From Georgenia subflava (lineage in GTDB: Bacteria; Actinomycetota; Actinomycetes; Actinomycetales; Actinomycetaceae), in the NCBI RefSeq assembly GCF_009193155.1, contig NZ_VUKD01000001.1, positions 744,001 to 808,000 on the forward strand: a DNA stretch of 64,000 bases, in the 5' to 3' direction. A model generated the notes under the pieces. The model worked only from the letters and a program-made list of their open reading frames with translations, had not been told where the DNA came from and ran no database searches. Below are positions 14,759 through 28,909 of the stretch, piece by piece (the stretch's first letter is position 1; each line of letters begins with the position of its first letter). The position numbers and the translations under genes are program-made.

Positions 14759-16354
14759 CTACTCCTCGATCGGCACGTCCGTGATGCGCCACTGCGCACC
14801 GGAGGTGGTGCGTTCCCCGGCCACCAGGGTCGCCGGCATGTCGACGGTCACCGTGTCCGCGCCCACGTCGGGCCACACGACGGTTGCCGTGTCCCAGCCA
14901 CCCACCTCGAGCACGCCGCGCATCTCCAGCTCCGCCAGCGGGTGACGATCGGCGTCGTCCTCGTCGCGCAGGGCGTAGTCGAGGGGGAAGACCCGCTGGT
15001 CCCCGACGAGCAGGGTGACCCCGGTGGCAGCCATCTGGAGCTGGGGGTTCCACGCCCCGCGGGCGTCCTTGGTGCCCTGGTTGACCGCCCAGCCGGCGAT
15101 CGCGGGCTCGCCCGCGACACGCTCGACACGCAGGTCCCCGACGAGCGTCCGACCCACCCGGCGGATCCGCTCCACGTCGATCTTCACCTCGCCGTCCCAC
15201 TCCCGGTAACCGACGACGACACCCTCGTCGACGTTGCCGACCGGACCGGTGGCGGCCGGCAGAGCACCGGCGGACGGCTCGGGCTCGGCCTGCGCACTGC
15301 TCGGGTCCGGGGTCGCGAACTCCAGCTCGACGCGCCGGTTCAGCGCCCGCGCCTCGGCGGAGGTGCCGTCGACGGCGGGGTCGCGGAAGGCGCGCCCCTC
15401 CACCGTGACCTCGAAGGACGAGAGGTCGACCAGCTCGCCCAGCCGGGTCGCCACGGCGTCCGCGCGCCGCTGCGAGAGCTCCTGGTTGTGCTGCTCGGTT
15501 CCCACGTCGTCGGTGTGCCCCACCACGGTCAGCTCGCCGGGGTCAGCGCCGGCCAGGTCCCTGCCGGCGGCCTCGAGGGCGGCGTCGGCCTCCGGGGAGA
15601 GATCTGCGGAGTCCGGTGCGAAGAGGACGTCGGTGGCGATGGCGACGGTCGTGACGTCCTCGACCTCCCGGGTCCGCACGGTGCCCTCGTCGACCTCGCG
15701 GTAGACGGCGAGCGGCCGGACCGGGGCGGTGAGCTCCTCCGGCGTCGCGTCGATCATGGCGGCGACCTCCGCCACGCCCACCTCCCCCTCGTCGACGACC
15801 GGCACATCGTCGACGAGACCGAGGTGGGGGACGAGCACCGCCGTGGTGTCTGTCGAGGGGGCCGCGAACACGGCGTGGAAGACGACCGTCTCGCCGCCCA
15901 CCCGGGCGAACTTCTCCTCGTTCTCGACCGCTCGTACCCCCTCGGCGTCGTGGGCCGTGAGCGAGACGGTGCGCTCCTCGGTGTCGACCAGCCGCAGGTT
16001 CGTCGGACGTGCCGGTCCCGTACCGGTCCAGGTGAAGCCGAACTGGACCGGCAGGTAGATATCCTCCCCGCCACCTGTCGCCGTGATCGAGACCGGGAGC
16101 ACGGCGAGCTCGCCGTCCCGGACGACAGGGCCGAGGCCCAGCTCGACCGTCGCGCCATCGATCTCCCCGTCGACGACGACCGCCTCCGCGGTCTCGGGGC
16201 TGCTCGTCTCGTCCTGGGCGGCGGACGCCTCGGCAGTCTCTGCGGGAGCCGTAGGTCCTTCTGAGGCCGGTTCCGTCCCCGAGCACGCTGCGAGCGCCAG
16301 CGCGATTCCGACAGACCCGACGACGGCACGGAGGGAGGGAGTCAGCACGTCCAC
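14759..16354 (-). CDS. OmpA-domain lipoprotein
   Basis: 531-residue exported lipoprotein (signal ending ALALAACSG, Cys at about 24). After a Ser/Thr/Glu-rich linker comes an Ig-like region (about 60-200) and an OmpA C-terminal peptidoglycan-binding domain at about residues 245-355. The latter contains LFAPDSADLSPEADAALEAAG, VVGHTDDVGTEQHNQELSQRRADAV and LNRRVEL. A further 160-residue domain follows that I do not recognise. The OmpA fold holds peptidoglycan, so it probably tethers the cell envelope. A TAGGAT box at 16355-16360 with 6 bases to GTG 16348 suggests leaderless translation from 16348, two codons inside the stated start. Confidence 0.82.
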   Translation of the reverse strand: MDVLTPSLRAVVGSVGIALALAACSGTEPASEGPTAPAETAEASAAQDETSSPETAEAVVVDGEIDGATVELGLGPVVRDGELAVLPVSITATGGGEDIYLPVQFGFTWTGTGPARPTNLRLVDTEERTVSLTAHDAEGVRAVENEEKFARVGGETVVFHAVFAAPSTDTTAVLVPHLGLVDDVPVVDEGEVGVAEVAAMIDATPEELTAPVRPLAVYREVDEGTVRTREVEDVTTVAIATDVLFAPDSADLSPEADAALEAAGRDLAGADPGELTVVGHTDDVGTEQHNQELSQRRADAVATRLGELVDLSSFEVTVEGRAFRDPAVDGTSAEARALNRRVELEFATPDPSSAQAEPEPSAGALPAATGPVGNVDEGVVVGYREWDGEVKIDVERIRRVGRTLVGDLRVERVAGEPAIAGWAVNQGTKDARGAWNPQLQMAATGVTLLVGDQRVFPLDYALRDEDDADRHPLAELEMRGVLEVGGWDTATVVWPDVGADTVTVDMPATLVAGERTTSGAQWRITDVPIEE

Positions 16355-20666: not shown

Positions 20667-21749
20667 TCAGCCCGCGGCGGCCACCGTGGCGCGCCGCGTC
20701 CCGGGCAGCTCGACGCCGCGGTCGGCGAGGAACCGGATCGGCTCGACGGGGATCCCGCCGACCCGGATCTCGAAGTGCAGGTGCGGCCCGGTGGAGTTGC
20801 CGGAGGAGCCCACGCGGGCGATCTGCTGGCCGGCGGTGACGACGTCACCCACCCGCACCAGGATCCCGCTCGGCCAGGGATGGACGTACCTGGACTGGAC
20901 GCCGCCGCCGTGGTCGACGGCGACCATGTACCCGGAGTTCCCGCCGGAGGACGGCCCGGCGACGGTGACGATCCCGTCGGCCGCCGCGTAGATCGGGTGC
21001 CCGTCCGGGGCCGCGAGGTCGGCACCCGAGTGCAGGGTCAGCTGCCCGGTGATCGGGTGCACGCGCTGACCGAACGCGGAGGAGTAGCGGACGTTGCCCA
21101 GGATCGGCGACGTCCAGCCCTCCGCGGTGACCGCCCCGACGGACAGGGCCGAGCACGGGCTCGGCCCCGCCGACGCGGCCAGGGCCGCCAGGTCCTCCCC
21201 GGCGAGCCCGTTCACGACGGCGACGGCGTCGCGCCAGTACCGCTCGTAGTGGTAGGGGTCGGCGTTGACCTGGACGCGGTGCGCGACGATCGTCGGCGGC
21301 AGCAGGCCACGATCGGCGACGGCGGCCAGCTTCTCGAAGAACATCGTCGCCGACGCGGTGGGATCCATCCGCTCCTCGTAGGTGCCCCAGGCACCGTTGT
21401 CGCGCTGCTGGAACAGGCCCCGCGAGTCCGGCCCGGCGAGGTCGCCGTGGTCGAGCACCTGCAGGCTCGACTCCCCCATCGCGGTCATCACACCGATCGT
21501 CTGGTCACGCACGCTCAGGCCCAGGTCCGCGCCGGCGTTGATGATCGCCGCGGCGTTGGCGAGCTGGACGCCGCCGTAGCCGTTGATCTCCGCCAGCTCC
21601 GCCCCGGCCAGCTCCACCCGGATGCCCGGGCCGCCCACGTTGCACGCGGCGAGGGCGTCGTCCTCGGCGTCGATGTACAGCACGAGCGCGACGACGGCGA
21701 CCAGGCTCGCCGCCAGGGCGAGCACCGCTGCCACGACCGCCGCACGCAT
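20667..21749 (-). CDS. Bifunctional cell-wall hydrolase: transglycosylase-like plus M23 endopeptidase
   Basis: 360 residues. One N-terminal membrane anchor (about 5-26), a lysozyme-like domain at 50-190 (AMGESSLQ with candidate catalytic Glu, DSRGLFQQRDNGAWGTYEER), then an M23 LytM domain at 215-345 with zinc ligands in LHSGADLAAP and GPHLHFEI. This is the VirB1-like hydrolase class that opens peptidoglycan for secretion machines; related two-domain proteins accompany Gram-positive conjugation systems. It lies 1 base after the lipoprotein gene and is divergent from the secretion operon. The second zinc-domain His of HLH is present, so the endopeptidase should be active. Confidence 0.88.
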   Translation of the reverse strand: MRAAVVAAVLALAASLVAVVALVLYIDAEDDALAACNVGGPGIRVELAGAELAEINGYGGVQLANAAAIINAGADLGLSVRDQTIGVMTAMGESSLQVLDHGDLAGPDSRGLFQQRDNGAWGTYEERMDPTASATMFFEKLAAVADRGLLPPTIVAHRVQVNADPYHYERYWRDAVAVVNGLAGEDLAALAASAGPSPCSALSVGAVTAEGWTSPILGNVRYSSAFGQRVHPITGQLTLHSGADLAAPDGHPIYAAADGIVTVAGPSSGGNSGYMVAVDHGGGVQSRYVHPWPSGILVRVGDVVTAGQQIARVGSSGNSTGPHLHFEIRVGGIPVEPIRFLADRGVELPGTRRATVAAAG

Positions 21750-21750
21750 C

Positions 21751-22335
21751 TCAGCCCGCCCCCTCGGGCGGCGTGATCCGCTCGACCAGCCAGTCCGTGG
21801 GGCCGTCCTGGCGGGAGAGGAGAACCTGGTAGACGCCGACGTCGGTGGCGACGTCCACCCGCGCGAGGTAGACGCTCGGCTCCTCGGCCACGACCGGTTC
21901 GCCGCTCACCGTCGTCGCGGGGATCGAGGCGGGCTGGACCCACTGGTAGTCCTGCTGCGCCCCGGGGGTCAGCAGACCGGAGAGCTCCGCCCACCACTGC
22001 TCGGGGTCGGCGGCGGGACGGGCGTAGAGCCGCATCGCCTCCCCTGCCACCGTCCGCGCCTGCGCACGGGAGGCGTCGTCCCAGACCGGCACCGGCGCCC
22101 CGGTCACCTCCTCGTCCCCGGGCGCGTGCAGCGGGGCGCCGGCCGGGGCGGACGGCGCAGGCACGGGCGTGGTGGCCGCGCCGGTGGGCGTCGGGGACGG
22201 GGCGACGGTGGTCGGGGCCGGACCGGGCCCCGGGCCGGTGCACGCCGGCAGGAGCACGGCCACCACGAGCGCGGCCGCCGCAGCCCGAACGGCAGTGCGG
22301 GTGGATCCCACCACCACCTCATTCCCCGGTACCAC
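21751..22335 (-). CDS. Lipoprotein of the T4SS-like locus
   Basis: About 190 residues: lipoprotein signal ending VAVLLPACTG, Pro/Thr/Ala linker (to about 85), then an alpha/beta domain (DDASRAQARTVAGEAMRLYA ... VYLARVDVATDVGVYQVLLSRQD ... DWLVERI). The fold outline resembles NTF2-like extracytoplasmic T4SS components, but I cannot assign a family. The true start may be one of three consecutive GTG codons at about 22311-22317, preceded by GGGGA. Partner of the hydrolase gene with 1 base between them. Confidence 0.72.
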   Translation of the reverse strand: MVPGNEVVVGSTRTAVRAAAAALVVAVLLPACTGPGPGPAPTTVAPSPTPTGAATTPVPAPSAPAGAPLHAPGDEEVTGAPVPVWDDASRAQARTVAGEAMRLYARPAADPEQWWAELSGLLTPGAQQDYQWVQPASIPATTVSGEPVVAEEPSVYLARVDVATDVGVYQVLLSRQDGPTDWLVERITPPEGAG

Positions 22336-22438
22336 GTGCGCGGGCGAGATCGCCTCCCCCGTTGCACTGTCCCAATAGAGTGAACTGGGTCACCATGATG
22401 GCTGAGAAAGACGCATGATGAGGGTTCGACAGCGACAG

Positions 22439-22458
22439 CTCCGCACGATCGTGCGGAG
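22439..22458. promoter_or_regulatory. Perfect 20-bp palindrome upstream of the T4SS-like operon
   Basis: CTCCGCACGATCGTGCGGAG, exactly self-complementary, ends 17 bases before the ATG at 22476 and just before the GGGGGA ribosome site. It could be a repressor operator or a hairpin in the leader RNA. Confidence 0.75.
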
Positions 22459-22475
22459 AGACGGGGGATCGGCAC

Positions 22476-23060
22476 ATGGGGCTGAACCGGGTCGAGGACC
22501 GGCGGGCCGGTACCGTCGAGGCGAGCGTCACCTTCCCGGTGCCCACCGGGCCGGCTATGCCGCAGCGCGGCGTCCCCTCTCCCGAGCACGCCCTCGCGGT
22601 CCGGGTGCGTCCGCGACGGGCGCAGCCCTGGTGGCTCGGCGCCCACGGCGGAGCCGGTGAGTCCACTCTCGCCGCCCTGGTGGGCGGCTCGGCTGCCGCC
22701 GACCACGCCTGGCCGGTTCCCCCCGGCACCGACGCGCCGCACGACGTCGTGCTCGTCGCCCGCACCAGCCTCACCGGGCTGCGGGCCGCACAGGTGGCGG
22801 CCACCCAGTGGGCCGCCGGGGACGTGCCGGGCGTGCAGCTGCTCGGCCTCGTCCTCATGGCCGACGCCCCCGGCCGCACGCCCACCCCGCTGCGTGACTT
22901 CGCACGGCTCGTGGCCGGCGGCGTGCCCCGGACGTGGTCGGTGCCGTGGGTGCCCTCCTGGCGGCTGACCGGGGAGCCCACCACCGCACCGGCCGCCCTC
23001 GACCGCCTGCGCCGCGACCTGAGCTCCCTCCTCACCGGCGCTCGCCCGGGGAAAGGCTGA
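22476..23060 (+). CDS. DUF6668-like MinD/ParA-type protein with degenerate P-loop
   Basis: 194 residues. WWLGAHGGAGESTLAALVGG at about 52-71 has the outline of the deviant Walker A of MinD/ParA proteins, but both lysines are missing (His57 and Glu62 instead). The later segments DVVLVARTSLTGLRAAQ and GVQLLGLVLMADAPGRTP fit the MinD fold. DUF6668 proteins are typical first genes of actinobacterial T4SS-like loci. Probably a non-hydrolysing scaffold or positioning protein. First gene of a six-gene rightward operon. Confidence 0.75.
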   Translation: MGLNRVEDRRAGTVEASVTFPVPTGPAMPQRGVPSPEHALAVRVRPRRAQPWWLGAHGGAGESTLAALVGGSAAADHAWPVPPGTDAPHDVVLVARTSLTGLRAAQVAATQWAAGDVPGVQLLGLVLMADAPGRTPTPLRDFARLVAGGVPRTWSVPWVPSWRLTGEPTTAPAALDRLRRDLSSLLTGARPGKG

Positions 23061-23061
23061 C

Positions 23062-23361
23062 GTGGTCCCCGCCGGCGCCCTGGAGCTCCTGACGGCGGCC
23101 CACGTCCTCGTCCTCACGAACGTCCCCGACCCCGGCCGTGGCGAGGCGCCACCGGGCACCGAGGGCTTCCTCGAGGTGCTCGCCTGGTCGAAGTGGGTCG
23201 CCCTGGGGATCTGCGTGCTCGGCCTGATCGTCGCCGGCGCCCTGATGGCCGTGAACTCGCGGCGCGGCGAGGGCGGCGAGCACCTCGGCCGCATCGGCAT
23301 GGCGCTCGCGGGCGTGATCGTCATCAGCGCCGCCTACTTCCTCGTCGGTGCACTGGCCTGA
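23062..23361 (+). CDS. Small two-helix membrane protein (VirB2/TrbC-like candidate)
   Basis: 99 residues from GTG 23062. Two hydrophobic segments, about 45-65 (WVALGICVLGLIVAGALMAV) and 78-98 (IGMALAGVIVISAAYFLVGA), are separated by a basic loop RRGEGGEHLGR. This size and topology match VirB2/TrbC pilin-like subunits of T4SS loci. The same loop-plus-helix pattern (RRGDGERHLGRLGVVLGGVI) recurs inside the polytopic protein two genes downstream, indicating shared ancestry. Pilin role is inference. Confidence 0.7.
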   Translation: MVPAGALELLTAAHVLVLTNVPDPGRGEAPPGTEGFLEVLAWSKWVALGICVLGLIVAGALMAVNSRRGEGGEHLGRIGMALAGVIVISAAYFLVGALA

Positions 23362-23376
23362 GCCGGCGGTGGACGC

Positions 23377-24096
23377 ATGGAGGACGAGCGCAACGTATGG
23401 GCCAGGCCGGCGTTCCTCGTCTCGGCCGTGCTCGTCGTCGGCCTCGTCGTGCTCGCCGTCTGGCTCGCCGCCACCCAGGCGGGTGGTGCCGACCGGGCGG
23501 ACCCACCCGTGCCCGTCCCGTCGGCCACGCCGACGGCGGAACCGGACATGGCCTCGGTGTGCGGCCTGGCGCAGGTCGAGCTCGACGGCACCGTCGTCCG
23601 CGCCCCCGCCACCACCAGCTGGAGCCTCGTCGGCACGGTCGCGGCTCCCGAGGTCCCCGGCGCGGGCCCCGGGGTCGTGGCCGACGACGGGCTGCGCACC
23701 TGCTACGCCCGCACCCCCGTCGGGGCGCTGGTCGCCGCCGCCAACGTGGTCGCGATGGGCTCGACCGACCTGCTCGTGCCCCGCATGACCGAGACGATGA
23801 CCGCCGCCGGACCCGGCCGGGACGCCGCGCTGGTCCGCCTGACCGAGCCCGACGACTCCCCCAGCCCCGCCGCGCGCTACCAGCTGCGCGGCTTCCGCAT
23901 GCTCGGCTACACCGGCGAGCGCGCCTCGGTGGACATCGCCATCAGCGTCGGCGACGGCGCCCTGGGCAGCTTCGTCGTCGACCTGATCTGGCAGGACGGG
24001 GACTGGAAGGTCCGCCTCACCGAGGACGGCCGGCTCGGCAGCCCACCCACCCAGGTGCCCGACCTGGCCGGCTACACCCTGTGGTCGGGGGCGTGA
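23377..24096 (+). CDS. Bitopic extracytoplasmic protein of the T4SS-like locus
   Basis: 239 residues, one membrane helix at about 12-32, short Pro-rich linker, then a soluble domain with two Cys that could form a disulfide (VCGLAQVEL and RTCYARTP). The C-terminal alpha/beta part (YQLRGFRMLGYTGERASVDIAI ... VVDLIWQDGDWKVRL) resembles the NTF2-like domains of TcpC/VirB8-type proteins, which bridge membrane and outer channel. Family not certain. Stop overlaps the next start (TGATG). Confidence 0.75.
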   Translation: MEDERNVWARPAFLVSAVLVVGLVVLAVWLAATQAGGADRADPPVPVPSATPTAEPDMASVCGLAQVELDGTVVRAPATTSWSLVGTVAAPEVPGAGPGVVADDGLRTCYARTPVGALVAAANVVAMGSTDLLVPRMTETMTAAGPGRDAALVRLTEPDDSPSPAARYQLRGFRMLGYTGERASVDIAISVGDGALGSFVVDLIWQDGDWKVRLTEDGRLGSPPTQVPDLAGYTLWSGA

Positions 24097-25658
24097 TGGC
24101 CACCCCGGACCCGACCCCCACCCTGCCGGCCGACCCCGGCTGCGACCCGCTCGACGTCTCCTGCGCGACGGCCGGCTGGCAGGTCGACGGCGGCTCGACC
24201 GCCCTCGACGAGCTCGCGAGCGCCGTCATGGAGGCGCTCGACACCACGCTCGGGGCGCTGGGCACGATGTGGGTGGACGTCGCCACGCCGTCGCTCACCG
24301 GCGACGGCGAGGGCGCGATCGAGGCCGGCGAGGTCGCGCCGGAGTCGGTCGCCGCGGTCGAGACGGTCCTCGGCTACGTCGTCTGGGTCTCCCTGGGCGT
24401 GGCGGTCCTGTCCATCGTCGCGCTCGGCGCGTGGATGGCCCTGGCCGGGCGGCGCGGCGACGGCGAGCGCCACCTGGGCCGGCTCGGCGTCGTGCTCGGC
24501 GGGGTCATCCTCATCTCCGCGGCCTCCGGGCTGGTGGCGGCGCTGGTGCCCGCCGAGCGGTTCGCGTCCACCGGCTCCGCGCCCGTCGCCACGACCCAGA
24601 ACGCCCTGTGGTGGTTCACCGCCGCCATGGCCGTGCTCGCCGTGATCGTCGCCGGCGCGAAGATGGCGTGGGAGCAGCGCGCCGCCGCGGGCCGCGACCT
24701 CGTGCGCTCGCTGCTGACGCTGGTGGTCGTCGCCGGTGCTGGGCTGACGGTCATCGCGCTCGCCGTCGTGGCCGCGGACTCCTTCGCCCTGTGGCTCCTC
24801 GAGCGGGTCACGGGCGGCGCGGACTTCGGCGCACAGGTCACCGCGATGCTGACCTTCTCCGACACCATGGGCGTGCTGCTGATCATCGTGCTCGGGCTCA
24901 TCGCGGTGGTCGCGGCGTTCGTGCAGATCATGCTGCTGGTCCTGCGCGGGGCGATGCTGGTGATCCTGGCGGGCATCTTCCCGCTGTCGGCCTCGTTCAC
25001 GAACACCGCCGTGGGCCGGTCGTGGTTCTACCGCGTCATCGCCTGGATCGTCGCCTTCGTCCTGTACAAGCCGGCCGCGGCCATCGTCTACGCCACCGCG
25101 TTCCAGCTCACCGAGCAGAACCTCTTCGCCGACGACGGCACCGGGTTGGTGCCGGTGCTCGCGGGCATCATCCTCATGGTCCTCGCACTGATGGCCCTGC
25201 CGGCGCTGATGAGCGTCGTCGCACCGCTCGTCGGCACCGTCGCACCGTCGGCCACGCCGGCCGCCACGACCCTGCCGCCCGGGACGTCGGCCGCGATGCC
25301 CACCGGGGCGGTCTCCGTGCACCGGCTCCGCCCGGCGGCGGGGCCCAGCGGGGCGGTCGGACTGCCCGGCAGCTCCGCGGTCCTGGCGCCGGCGGGCGGC
25401 CAGGACGGCGGTCGTCACGCGGGCCCGGGCGGTGCGCTCGAGGGCGGTCCCAGCGGCCGTGACGGTCCGGCGACCCCGCCGGGCGCCGCCGACGCCCTGG
25501 ACGAGAGCCGCGGATCCCGCGCGGGCGAGACGGCGCCGCGCGAGACTGAGGAGCACGAGTCGGCCGAGCCCGAGGGTCCGGCCGAGACAGGACCGGCCGA
25601 TCCCGGTCCGGCGCACCTGAGCACCGAGGGAGATGGTTCGCGTGCCGGCCACCGCTGA
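24096..25658 (+). CDS. Polytopic VirB6/TrbL-like membrane protein
   Basis: 520 residues. Soluble N-terminal 85 residues, then about eight membrane helices between 90 and 390, including ALWWFTAAMAVLAVIVAGAK and GVLLIIVLGLIAVVAAFVQIM. The central motif GAMLVILAGIFPLSASFTNT followed by WFYRVIAWIVAFVLYKPAAA is typical of the actinobacterial TrbL-like group. The last 130 residues are Pro/Ala/Gly/Glu-rich and disordered. VirB6-like proteins form the inner-membrane pore of T4SS. ATG at 24096 overlaps the previous stop; its 3' end overlaps the next gene by 26 bases. Confidence 0.82.
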   Translation: MATPDPTPTLPADPGCDPLDVSCATAGWQVDGGSTALDELASAVMEALDTTLGALGTMWVDVATPSLTGDGEGAIEAGEVAPESVAAVETVLGYVVWVSLGVAVLSIVALGAWMALAGRRGDGERHLGRLGVVLGGVILISAASGLVAALVPAERFASTGSAPVATTQNALWWFTAAMAVLAVIVAGAKMAWEQRAAAGRDLVRSLLTLVVVAGAGLTVIALAVVAADSFALWLLERVTGGADFGAQVTAMLTFSDTMGVLLIIVLGLIAVVAAFVQIMLLVLRGAMLVILAGIFPLSASFTNTAVGRSWFYRVIAWIVAFVLYKPAAAIVYATAFQLTEQNLFADDGTGLVPVLAGIILMVLALMALPALMSVVAPLVGTVAPSATPAATTLPPGTSAAMPTGAVSVHRLRPAAGPSGAVGLPGSSAVLAPAGGQDGGRHAGPGGALEGGPSGRDGPATPPGAADALDESRGSRAGETAPRETEEHESAEPEGPAETGPADPGPAHLSTEGDGSRAGHR

Positions 25659-27150
25659 GCCAGGGCACCACGTGCCCCGCACCTACGGCAACTGGCGCCG
25701 GCCCACGAGTCCGGGCCTGATGGGGCTGGGCACGGTCGGGACGATGATCCTCATGGGCGGCCTGATCGTCGTCGTCCTGGTCGTCATGCTCTCGGACCTG
25801 CTCCGCGGCCTCGCCGTGGCGGCCGGCCTGGCCGTTCTCCTCATGGCGATCGCGGTGCGCGACAAGCACGGCCTCAACGCGCTCGACAAGGGCTCCGCCC
25901 GCGTCGGGTGGTGGCGCCAGCGCTCGGCCGGGGAGCACCTGTACCGCTCCGGGCCGCTGGGCCAGGTGCCGTGGGGCACCAACCAGCTGCCCGGCCTGGC
26001 GGCGGCGTCGAAGCTCAGCGAGCACTCCGACTCCTACGGCCGCCGCTTCGCGCTGCTGCGCGTCCCGTCGACCTCCACGTTCACGATCGTCATCGGCACC
26101 GAGCCCGACGGCGCGGCCCTGGTGGACGAGGAGCAGGTGGACGCCTGGGTCTCGGACTGGGGGCTGTGGCTGGCCAACCTCGGTGACGAACCCGGGATCG
26201 TCGCCGCCTCGGTGACCGTCGAGACCGCCCCCGACACGGGCACCCGTCTGCGCCGCGAGGTCGCCACCAACATCGACCCCGACGCCCCGGAGTTCGCCCG
26301 CGCGCTGCTCGCCGAGACGGTGCGCGACTACCCGAGCGGCTCCTCCACTGTCCGCGCGTACGTGGCGCTGAGCTTCGCGGCGGCCCGGGGCGGGAAGAAG
26401 CGCAGCGCCGCCGAGCTCGCCCGCGAGCTCGGCGCCCGACTGCCCGGCCTGACGGGTGAGCTGCAGGCCACCGGCGCCGGTCCGGCGCACCCGCTGGACG
26501 CCCAGGAGCTCTGCGAGCTGGTGCGCGTCGCCTACGACCCGGCGTCGGCCACGGCCATCGACGAGCTGCACGCCCGTGGTGAGGCGACAGCGCTCTCGTG
26601 GTCCGACGTCGGGCCGTCGGCCGCCGAGGCCACCTGGGACGACTACCGGCACGACTCCGGGCTGTCGGTGACCTGGGCGATGACCGGGGCGCCGCGCGGC
26701 AACGTCCAGTCCTCGATCCTGGCCCGGCTGCTCGCCCCGCACCGGGACGTCGCGCGCAAGCGGGTGACCCTGCTCTACCGACCGATCGACGCCGCCAGCG
26801 CCGCGGCGATCGTCGAGGCGGACCTGCGTGCCGCCCAGTTCCGCCAGACGTCCTCGGACAAGCCCACCGCCCGCGACGTGCTCGCCACCCGCGCGGCGGC
26901 GCTGACCGCCCAGGAGGAGGCGGCCGGGGCCGGCCTGGTGAACTTCGGCATGCTGGTCACGGCCACGGTGCTGGACGTCGCACGGGCTGCGGACGCCCAC
27001 GCCGCGGTGGAGAACCTCTCGGCGACGGCCCGCCTGCGGCTGCGTCCGGTCTACGGCTCGCAGGACTCCGCCTTCGCCGCCGCGCTGCCCCTGGGCCTGG
27101 TCCTGCCCCGGCACCTGGCGCTGCCCGGCCAGGTCAGGGACCGGCTGTGA
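25633..27150 (+). CDS. SCO6880 family T4SS-like protein
   Basis: 505 residues. Two adjacent membrane helices at about 32-75 in the N-terminus (PrgI-like arrangement) are followed by a large cytoplasmic domain. Segments TYGNWRRPTSPGL, GEHLYRSGPLG, SDSYGRRFALLRVPST and HRDVARKRVTLLYRPID are characteristic of the SCO6880 family, which corresponds to the N-terminal half of a split VirB4. The next gene supplies the ATPase half. Widespread in actinobacterial chromosomes and integrative elements. Starts inside the previous gene. Confidence 0.88.
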   Translation: MVRVPATAEPGHHVPRTYGNWRRPTSPGLMGLGTVGTMILMGGLIVVVLVVMLSDLLRGLAVAAGLAVLLMAIAVRDKHGLNALDKGSARVGWWRQRSAGEHLYRSGPLGQVPWGTNQLPGLAAASKLSEHSDSYGRRFALLRVPSTSTFTIVIGTEPDGAALVDEEQVDAWVSDWGLWLANLGDEPGIVAASVTVETAPDTGTRLRREVATNIDPDAPEFARALLAETVRDYPSGSSTVRAYVALSFAAARGGKKRSAAELARELGARLPGLTGELQATGAGPAHPLDAQELCELVRVAYDPASATAIDELHARGEATALSWSDVGPSAAEATWDDYRHDSGLSVTWAMTGAPRGNVQSSILARLLAPHRDVARKRVTLLYRPIDAASAAAIVEADLRAAQFRQTSSDKPTARDVLATRAAALTAQEEAAGAGLVNFGMLVTATVLDVARAADAHAAVENLSATARLRLRPVYGSQDSAFAAALPLGLVLPRHLALPGQVRDRL

Positions 27151-28643
27151 GCGACCGGCAGGCCACGGCGCAGCAGCGCCGGCCCGGCCCGCGCGGATGG
27201 CCCGGGCTGGGCCGGGGCCGCTCGACGGAGGTCCAGCCGGTGCCGGAGTGGCGCGGCTCGACCCGCCAGGTGTGCGGGCTGTGGCCGTACGCGATCGGCT
27301 CCGGCACCCCGATGGTGGGTGTGCCGCTCGGCCGGAACATGACGTCCGGCGCGACGGTGTGCTGCGACCCGGTCTCGTGGTTCCAGCGGGCCAACCTCAT
27401 CTCCAACCCGTCCGCCTTCGTGCTCGGTCTGCCGGGCCTGGGCAAGTCGACGCTGGTGCGGCGGATGGCGGCCGGGCTCGCCGGCTACGGCGTGATGCCG
27501 CTGGTGCTCGGCGACCTCAAGCCGGACTACGTCGACCTCATCGAGGCGCTGGGCGGCCAGGTCATCACGCTCGGCGGCGCACGGGGGCACATCAACGTCC
27601 TCGACCCTGGCGAGGCGACGTCGGCGGCCGCCGTCCTGACGGGGACCGCGCGGCAGCTGGTGCTCGCCGACGCGCACGAGCGGCGGCTGACGATGGTCTC
27701 GTCCCTGCTCACGATCCTGCGCGCCCAGCCGCCGAGCGACCGCGAGGAGACGATCCTCGACCGTGCGCTGCGCGTGCTGGACGAGCGGCACGTGGGCGTG
27801 CCGGTGCTGCCGGACCTGCTGGCGGTGATCCGCGAGGCCCCCGAGGACGTGCGCCAGGTCGCGCTGGACCGTGGCTCGCTCGACAGGTACCAGGTCCTGA
27901 CCGAGAACCTCGAGGCGTCGCTGATCGGCCTGGTCGACGGCGGCCGGCTGGGGCGGACGTTCTCGCACCCCACGTCGAGCCCGATGCGCCGGGACCGCCC
28001 CGTGGTCTACGACGTGAGCCACATCGACGACGCCCAGACCGACCTGCAGGCCGCGGTGATGCTGGCGTGCTGGTCCGCCGGGTTCGGCATGGTCAACGTC
28101 GCCAACGCGCTGGCCGACGCCGGTGTGGAGCCGCGCCGGCACTACTTCGTCGTCCTGGACGAGCTCTGGCGGGTGCTGCGGGCCGGGCGCGGGATCGTCG
28201 ACCGGGTCGACGCCCTCACCCGGCTCAACCGCACCCGGGGGGTGGGGACCGCGATGATCTCTCACACCATGTCCGACCTCCTGGCGCTGCCGGCGGAGGA
28301 GGACCGGATGAAGGCCCGCGGGTTCGTCGAGCGCTCCGGGATGGTCATCGCCGGCGGCCTGCCCGGGGCGGAGATGGCCATGCTGACCCAGGCGGTGCCG
28401 ATGTCCCGCGCCGAGCAGGAGATGCTGATCGGCTGGCAGGACCCGCCCGCCTGGGACCCGATCCACAACCGGGAGACGGAGCCGCCCGGTCGCGGGAAGT
28501 TCCTCGTCAAGGTGGGCGGCCGACCGGGCATCCCCGTGCAGGTCCAGCTCACCAGCGTCGAGATGGGCATCCACGACACCAACAAGCGTTGGCGCGAGAT
28601 GTCGCGCGTCGCTCGGGTGGAGCGGGACGAGATCGAGGCGTGA
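27147..28643 (+). CDS. VirB4/TraC-like T4SS ATPase
   Basis: 498 residues from GTG 27147, overlapping the SCO6880 stop (GTGA). Walker A GLPGLGKSTLVRR at about 93-105, a LGDLKPDYVDLIEALGG segment, Walker B YFVVLDELWRVLRAG near 333-347, and TRLNRTRGVGTAMISHTMSD matching the VirB4 sensor region. It is the energising ATPase that pulls pilin-like subunits or substrates through the membrane complex. It lacks the N-terminal VirB4 half, which is the preceding gene. Last recognisable gene of the locus. Confidence 0.88.
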   Translation: MSDRQATAQQRRPGPRGWPGLGRGRSTEVQPVPEWRGSTRQVCGLWPYAIGSGTPMVGVPLGRNMTSGATVCCDPVSWFQRANLISNPSAFVLGLPGLGKSTLVRRMAAGLAGYGVMPLVLGDLKPDYVDLIEALGGQVITLGGARGHINVLDPGEATSAAAVLTGTARQLVLADAHERRLTMVSSLLTILRAQPPSDREETILDRALRVLDERHVGVPVLPDLLAVIREAPEDVRQVALDRGSLDRYQVLTENLEASLIGLVDGGRLGRTFSHPTSSPMRRDRPVVYDVSHIDDAQTDLQAAVMLACWSAGFGMVNVANALADAGVEPRRHYFVVLDELWRVLRAGRGIVDRVDALTRLNRTRGVGTAMISHTMSDLLALPAEEDRMKARGFVERSGMVIAGGLPGAEMAMLTQAVPMSRAEQEMLIGWQDPPAWDPIHNRETEPPGRGKFLVKVGGRPGIPVQVQLTSVEMGIHDTNKRWREMSRVARVERDEIEA

Positions 28644-28690
28644 CGGCGCAGCTCGGGCCGGCGCGCCGGGGCCTGAGCACCGTCTACTGA
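28640..28690 (+). pseudogene. 16-codon remnant or stub ORF at the end of the T4SS-like operon
   Basis: GTG 28640 overlaps the ATPase stop (GTGA), the coupling pattern used throughout this operon, but a TGA ends the frame after 16 codons (VTAQLGPARRGLSTVY). Elsewhere a TraD/VirD4 coupling-protein gene often stands here. It may be a residue of a deleted gene or chance. Confidence 0.3.
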
Positions 28691-28909
28691 CCTGGCACCG
28701 GATACGGACCTGCGTGGCGTGCGCAGGGGAAGAAGAATCGGGGCGCTTCCGTCCTCTAGAGCGCACGAACCGGAGCGGCTACCGTGACCGCCGGGCACGG
28801 CGTCGTGCCCGCTCCGTCCGCATCGCCCCGGGGAACGGTCGGCGACGACCCTGCAGTGCCTGCCCCGGGCTGAGACAACTCGCCCCGCCAGGGGCGTAGA
28901 GGGGAACTC

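Follow-up and report, generated by a model that had tools for sequence, protein, structure and literature searches.

We analysed a 64,000-nucleotide stretch of DNA (hereafter the window), which spans positions 744001-808000 of contig C3 in a 4.32-Mb, 11-contig genome (G000) of the monoderm bacterium Georgenia. An open reading frame (ORF) listing and profile searches revealed a type IV secretion system (T4SS) module of eight intact, open genes at 20667-28643. These form two divergent transcription units: the genes of an M23 hydrolase and a lipoprotein are read leftward, and six genes, from that of a DUF6668 protein to that of a VirB4-like ATPase, are read rightward, with spacers of at most 16 bases or with overlaps. 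A preliminary description of this DNA, made from the letters alone, had proposed the same set and layout, and the family matches bear this out. Its left boundary (20667) is retained; the right one (28690) belongs to an overlapping ORF that is read in a different frame, and the ATPase gene stops at 28643. Identities in the list below refer to homologues on plasmid pRE117-1 of Glutamicibacter arilaitensis (NC_014549), and published studies are cited throughout from extracts, by PMC number.

20667-21749, minus strand: M23 peptidoglycan hydrolase with one N-terminal hydrophobic segment in the hydropathy plot (PF01551, E 1.4e-28; 57% identity)
21751-22335, minus strand: small lipoprotein, LpX (family alignment; 43% identity; lipobox read by eye)
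22336-22475, no strand: divergent promoter region with the direct repeat CATGATG at 22394-22400 and 22414-22420
22476-23060, plus strand: DUF6668 protein with the degenerate P-loop HGGAGEST (PF20373, E 2.7e-14)
23062-23361, plus strand: pilin-like (VirB2-like) membrane protein of 99 amino acids (aa) (PF18895, below cut-off; family alignment; hydropathy)
23377-24096, plus strand: VirB8-like bitopic protein with an NTF2-like domain
24096-25658, plus strand: VirB6-like polytopic protein with an N-terminal pilin-like hairpin at residues 78-150 (eight hydropathy peaks; 45% identity)
25633-27150, plus strand: SCO6880 protein, with two N-terminal transmembrane segments and a VirB4 N-terminal domain (NF042935, E 4e-174)
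27147-28643, plus strand: ATPase corresponding to the C-terminal half of VirB4 (NF045971; 75% identity; GLPGLGKST as Walker A and a stretch resembling Walker B, both identified by eye)
28644-28909, no strand: usual position of the type IV coupling protein (T4CP) gene; 266 bp without T4CP homology, followed by a secreted protease gene

Two earlier assignments, a bitopic VirB8-like protein and SCO6880 as the N-terminal half of VirB4, agree with the folds: the former protein has the bitopic topology and NTF2-like fold of the VirB8 family, and the latter shows the VirB4 N-terminal fold, i.e. VirB4 is split between two genes. SCO6880 had no match among PDB sequences at E values up to 1, its window member matched no Pfam family, and PrgI (PF12666) was detected in 2 of 42 members, with a best E of 0.05. 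The ATPase matched the VirB4-type NCBIfam model NF045971 with an E of 7e-11, below the cut-off of the model. The 99-aa protein, previously described as pilin-sized, has a sub-threshold match to T4SS_pilin (PF18895), with an E of 4.8e-4 and 20.6 bits against a Pfam cut-off of 26.6. A homologous stretch makes up residues 78-150 of the VirB6-like protein (window 24327-24545; 51% over 73 aa, BLASTP E 7e-17), and this pilin-like hairpin is present in 62 of the 79 members of the VirB6-like family, where it might act as an inbuilt template for the base of a pilus. Position and topology suggest a VirB6 role for the polytopic protein. The N-terminal region of the M23 hydrolase is conserved among the plasmid homologues, and the enzyme presumably has a VirB1-like role. 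The DUF6668 protein, a putative MinD-like pseudo-ATPase in the earlier proposal, does have a degenerate P-loop, whose lysine is replaced by glutamate in all 28 aligned members. LpX was considered as a second VirB8 fold and dropped, since its profile comparison with the VirB8 alignment was empty. A PHROGs search of the core genes added nothing.

Resident modules of this type were found in five of nine Georgenia genomes (carriers G000, G051, G072, G112 and G121; non-carriers G022, G090, G102 and G119). The CATGATG repeat lies upstream of the DUF6668 gene in all five resident loci, at a spacing of 18-20 bp, its first copy reading CATGATC or GATGATC in four of them. At this spacing it was found in none of ten other loci looked at, and a regulon search with the repeat pattern across the genome returned the module locus as its sole match. 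The palindrome CTCCGCACGATCGTGCGGAG, also upstream of the DUF6668 gene, was rejected as an operator, as the same scan gave none in the other four Georgenia loci.

Plasmid relatives and the missing coupling protein

The module ATPase is encoded by 409 of 72,556 plasmid records (E 1e-30 or better), with identities of up to 77%; PLSDB classifies these plasmids as conjugative (138), mobilizable (120) or non-mobilizable (151). Four were read in detail (pS16-2, pRE117-1, pNBRC108565a and one of Streptomyces canus), and in each the module is followed by genes for a T4CP and a DUF4913 protein, with MobC and a relaxase also encoded on the plasmid. The S. canus plasmid has an NlpC/P60 gene in place of the M23 gene. 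The other three share with the window all eight genes, their order and their divergent layout, the window proteins being 35-75% identical to those of the pRE117-1 transfer region. Plasmids of the pRE117-1 type additionally encode (i) a helix-turn-helix (HTH) regulator, (ii) an AAA ATPase, (iii) a T4CP, (iv) DUF4913, (v) a MOBP-type relaxase and (vi) MobC. In tblastn searches (E 1e-3 stated for MOBP and MobC) none of these six had a homologue in the window, nor in the orthologous loci of the other carriers, including that of G121, which is split over two contigs.

The preliminary description had suggested that synteny be compared across relatives, and the comparison places the same gene order on plasmids, with a T4CP. 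There are 318 confirmed loci with named hosts, and of the best 80 of these, 79 have a T4CP match that starts within 0.8 kb past the ATPase gene, the one exception being Georgenia EYE_87; a MOBP match occurs in the flank covered for 26 of the 80. A T4CP match is likewise present in each of twelve additional loci that lie in other genomes or on other contigs. None of the five Georgenia resident loci has a T4CP downstream of the ATPase.

Genome-wide, G000 gave one match each to the T4CP families PF02534 and PF12696, both at C3:128-130 kb, one to TrwC (PF08751; searched in this genome alone) at C3:84-85 kb, and none to the relaxase family PF03432 at E 0.001. The T4CP and TrwC genes, at a distance of 635-680 kb from the module, flank a second set of SCO6880 and ATPase genes, with 26-29% identity in the ATPase, and the earlier statement that neither type of gene flanks the module therefore holds. 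The second set is located in C3:66-146 kb, probably a separate element resembling an integrative and conjugative element (ICE), where inspection by eye points to a ParB-like gene and a transposase. PF12696 was detected in all five carriers and in two of the four non-carriers, and its co-distribution with the module is not discriminating. The T4CPs of G000, G051, G072 and G121 are 30-33% identical to that of pRE117-1; in G112 two copies reach 76-81% and a third (contig C2) 34%. PF03432 is found among the carriers in G112 alone. Because of these low identities and this relaxase distribution, we consider the cognate T4CP and MOBP relaxase to be missing from four of the five carriers.

G112 also has two further plasmid-type modules (C3 and C1), which have T4CP matches and are placed elsewhere in the tree described below. 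One is whole, on a 164-kb contig that also carries MOBP and MobC; in the other, on a 75-kb contig, the SCO6880 and ATPase frames are broken and the T4CP runs into the contig end. In G022 a SCO6880-family fragment with two stops (C12:244866-245390) has a fragmented T4CP (C12:249633-249989) a few kb away; these fragments, away from the site of the resident module, are a decayed element of another type.

A Pfam scan of 40 other ORFs of the window, some of which matched no family, showed no integrase, transposase, relaxase or T4CP, no tRNA was found in the window, and no direct repeat of at least 12 bases joined the two edges tested. For the window, an ICE bounded by attachment (att) sites or an integrase was rejected on these ORFs and edges, in line with the preliminary description. 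In G112 and G072 the edges have a few GC-rich stretches in common, which at about 12-13 bases are no longer than expected by chance.

A single Georgenia clade at the APP1 site

In all five carriers the module adjoins an APP1 phosphatase gene. The corresponding site is empty in G022, where the gene found to the right of the module in G112 lies 3 bases past APP1 and is followed by the gene found to the right of the module in G051 and G072. In G090 and G119, APP1 has no module genes in the 20 kb read, and the G102 contig stops near APP1. An unrooted APP1 tree places the carriers on one side of a branch with support 99/98.

A tree of concatenated ATPase and SCO6880 sequences (101 rows; built by a quick method, which gave long-branch warnings on rows outside the Georgenia clade) groups the five T4CP-less chromosomal loci in one clade (SH-aLRT support 100), nested among T4CP-bearing modules. 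The sister of this clade is the module of Actinomycetales bacterium JB111, which has T4CP, MOBP and MobC (SH-aLRT 99). On the simplest reading of this tree, the T4CP would have been lost once.

The module genes are open, without internal stops, in all five carriers, the VirB6-like gene of G121 being cut by a contig end. Pairwise ratios of nonsynonymous to synonymous substitution (dN/dS; Nei-Gojobori, start codons chosen by script) were below 1 for every gene and pair, within an overall range of 0.025-0.71: ATPase 0.04-0.21, SCO6880 0.03-0.24, pilin-like protein 0.08-0.36, M23 hydrolase 0.05-0.38, VirB6-like protein 0.16-0.50, DUF6668 0.03-0.53, lipoprotein 0.28-0.53 and VirB8-like protein 0.31-0.71, with 0.06-0.35 for APP1. 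The ATPase is 87-99% identical across species pairs and more conserved than APP1 in all ten. Since the frames are open and dN/dS is below 1, the module is being kept and is not decaying. Its codon usage differs from that of 20 neighbouring genes by 0.0307, no more than that of random sets of eight neighbours (mean 0.0311). We think it somewhat better than an even chance that the module is a captured plasmid- or ICE-type mating apparatus which lost its DNA-loading half and was then kept.

Proposed role and competing explanations

The eight genes probably encode a domesticated conjugation apparatus, a T4CP-free envelope machine that would assemble a pilus or channel. In the ancestral genome of one Georgenia clade, a plasmid- or ICE-type mating-channel module would have settled beside the APP1 gene, and the comparison with plasmids indicates that this lineage parted it from the coupling protein, DUF4913, AAA ATPase, HTH regulator, MobC and relaxase. 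The remaining set should still be able to build a trans-envelope machine, in which (i) the M23 hydrolase would open the wall, (ii) the VirB8-like and VirB6-like proteins would form the channel, and (iii) the split VirB4 (SCO6880 and ATPase) may drive the pilin-like protein from the membrane on a VirB6 platform with its own hairpin. Because a T4CP is absent, such a machine would not export DNA from the cytoplasm; most likely it would build a pilus or a structure of the envelope, with a part in adhesion, in contact between cells or in homeostasis of the envelope. Of the resident machine with a task other than DNA transfer that was proposed earlier, the chromosomal residence, the lack of T4CP and relaxase at the locus and the selection stand, and the proposal as a whole is partly supported.

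Several points weigh against the domesticated apparatus. The pilin call depends on a sub-threshold Pfam match, and the T4SS classes of Gram-positive bacteria are described as lacking pilin genes (PMC12102498). Four of nine genomes lack the locus, which is therefore not essential to the genus, and evolution is fast in the genes of the VirB8-like protein and the lipoprotein, whose dN/dS reaches 0.71 and 0.53, respectively. T4CP-less loci are not confined to Georgenia, as genome G188 shows, and the ATPase and SCO6880 of the window gave no BLAST match at E 0.01 to five loci of the Streptomyces cmd machine (both described below), which leaves that likeness short of sequence orthology.

An apparatus with VirB4 and channel proteins and without a T4CP, as found in the window, belongs with the VirD4-less T4SSs, whose tasks include protein release, adhesive pili and DNA uptake (PMC12857230). 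In the extracts of that paper, the coupling-protein-free systems listed are all Gram-negative. Bordetella Ptl, Brucella VirB, Helicobacter pylori ComB and Bartonella Trw resemble the window in being VirB4-driven and T4CP-free; they differ from it in their Gram-negative hosts and VirB7/9/10 proteins, whereas the window divides VirB4 over two genes and has a VirB6-like protein with a pilin-like hairpin (PMC12857230). The T4SSs of Patescibacteria are likewise chromosomal, mostly relaxase-free and of a monoderm type with VirB2-like pilins, but belong to another lineage with another gene set, in which T4CP genes are common and mostly located away from virB4 (PMC12102498).

The best placed of the alternatives, though unlikely, is DNA uptake or exchange of the Ced/ComB kind, in which a machine powered solely by VirB4 would import DNA from outside or from siblings. 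The archaeal Ced and Ted systems are domesticated chromosomal VirB2-VirB6-VirB4 sets without a recognised relaxase, and Ted loci commonly include the gene of a MinD/ParA-family ATPase (PMC9905601); ComB of H. pylori lacks VirD4 and has VirB4 as its only ATPase (PMC12857230). However, no competence genes were present among the window ORFs scanned, and the DUF6668 protein, whose MinD kinship is putative, lacks the P-loop lysine, which makes the parallel with the Ted MinD protein weak. The Georgenia module further differs from Ced and Ted in its retained wall hydrolase and VirB8-like protein and its extant plasmid sisters. A conjugative apparatus domesticated for DNA transfer is, in the extracts of PMC9905601, known from archaea only.

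Slightly less probable again is a helper channel, resident in the cell and used in trans by ICEs or plasmids equipped with a T4CP and relaxase of their own. Such use may be conceivable, as all five carriers have at least one TraG/TraD-type T4CP elsewhere (a further point against the domesticated apparatus), and DNA delivery by Bartonella VirB/D4 improves on addition of TrwB of R388 (PMC12857230). Against this, the sole T4CP of G000 adjoins its own SCO6880 and ATPase genes, the T4CPs of four carriers show just the 30-33% identity to the cognate family given above, and a helper for parasites would hardly be maintained by selection on the host.

We regard as improbable a two-step release of protein, with a cargo such as the adjacent protease exported by Sec and then taken across the wall by the T4SS. 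Protein is the cargo of Bordetella Ptl and of Brucella VirB, both of which operate without VirD4 (PMC12857230). In the window, the secreted protease gene begins 267 bp downstream of the module. The cell of Georgenia, a monoderm, has no second membrane to cross, and the protease is near the module in just three of five carriers, being about 16 kb off in G121 and absent from the 20 kb read in G112; the earlier suggestion of the protease as a partner was rejected for this inconsistent adjacency. A decaying, functionless relic of an integrated element, which would fit the loss of the DNA-processing genes and the absence of the locus from four genomes, is largely refuted and very improbable, as the eight genes are open, with dN/dS below 1, in the five carriers and the ATPase is better conserved than APP1.

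Streptomyces cmd and other loci without a coupling protein

The closest studied case to the Georgenia module is the cmd machine of Streptomyces (cmdABCDEF, SCO4126-4131; PMC2782261). Single deletions of every cmd gene but cmdA gave light-grey, poorly sporulating colonies, the cmdA deletion resembling the wild type; segregation was scored as defective in the strains lacking cmdB or cmdA-F, pigment was increased in the cmdB, cmdD, cmdE and cmdA-F deletions, and deletion of the cluster left transfer of an SLP2-derived plasmid unchanged (PMC2782261). A genome-wide transposon screen lists cmdBCDEF, and not cmdA, as well as tgdA, which encodes a putative secreted lytic transglycosylase (PMC6585502).

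For comparison we used five loci of one genus (g64), taken as Streptomyces. They were recognised as cmd by a mutagenesis primer given in PMC2782261, which encodes ESGNGESALE, the Lys-to-Glu form of the ESGNGKSALE present in all five; a second primer, encoding VQVVRHLIT, corresponds to VQVVKHLIT in two loci and VQVVKHLVT in three. Downstream of the ATPase, all five have a match to the plasmid T4CP. The P-loop G-x4-GK[ST] was found in none of the four proteins read for it from this position; of four searched for any GK[ST], three contain none and one has a single GKS, by eye in the linker. We infer that this protein is CmdA, and the gene at the T4CP position of cmd seems dispensable. Both cmd and the window thus have a chromosomal series of pilin-sized, bitopic-sized, polytopic, SCO6880-family and VirB4-like ATPase genes with an absent or degenerate T4CP function, but cmd keeps a T4CP-like gene, has no adjoining M23 match and shows its phenotype in sporulation. 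The Georgenia case offers a mechanistic frame for these puzzling genes.

We also scanned 295 genomes at class level for SCO6880 loci; the figures refer to the matches listed, with contig ends included, and the distances were counted without some T4CP matches on other contigs. At 480 bits or more (33 loci), the T4CP domain TraG-D_C lies within 6 kb downstream in 28, at 6-40 kb in three and is absent in two, namely the window and G188 (genus g64), whose T4CP-less module is located less than 8 kb from a T4CP-bearing set. The notion of Georgenia as the sole T4CP-less case is therefore wrong. The 380-479-bit band gives a mixed picture (19 within 6 kb, 15 at 6-40 kb, 10 with none). At 350-379 bits, 11 loci have TraG-D_C within 6 kb and 23 have none within 40 kb downstream; 22 of these 23 belong to one family (f22; genome G268 among them). 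Seven of the 23, all of them f22 loci, were read for a T4CP and gave no match. The f22 genomes (5-11 Mb) have a conserved SCO6880/ATPase locus and no detected T4CP. At 26-29% identity, the f22 loci look like a separate T4CP-less chromosomal lineage.

It is possible, though doubtful, that Actinobacteria have repeatedly tamed conjugation machines by dropping the T4CP; Georgenia, Streptomyces cmd and the f22 loci would each represent, independently, the same T4CP-free envelope machine, with a VirB4-driven pilus or channel that the cell itself uses for Ced-like DNA exchange or for cell-cell or envelope functions. Georgenia would then be a recent case, whose conjugative sisters are still extant. 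An open-licence literature search found no paper on the Georgenia locus. The conversion of a conjugation machine into a cellular organ is rarely caught underway, and this genus offers the tame module, conjugative sister modules, the chromosomal site and an empty site together, which makes the question of what a T4SS can do without VirD4 testable in bacteria that are not known as pathogens of concern.

Outside the module, the window encodes a lipoprotein-like protein with an OmpA domain at 14759-16354 (PF00691, E 6.6e-15).

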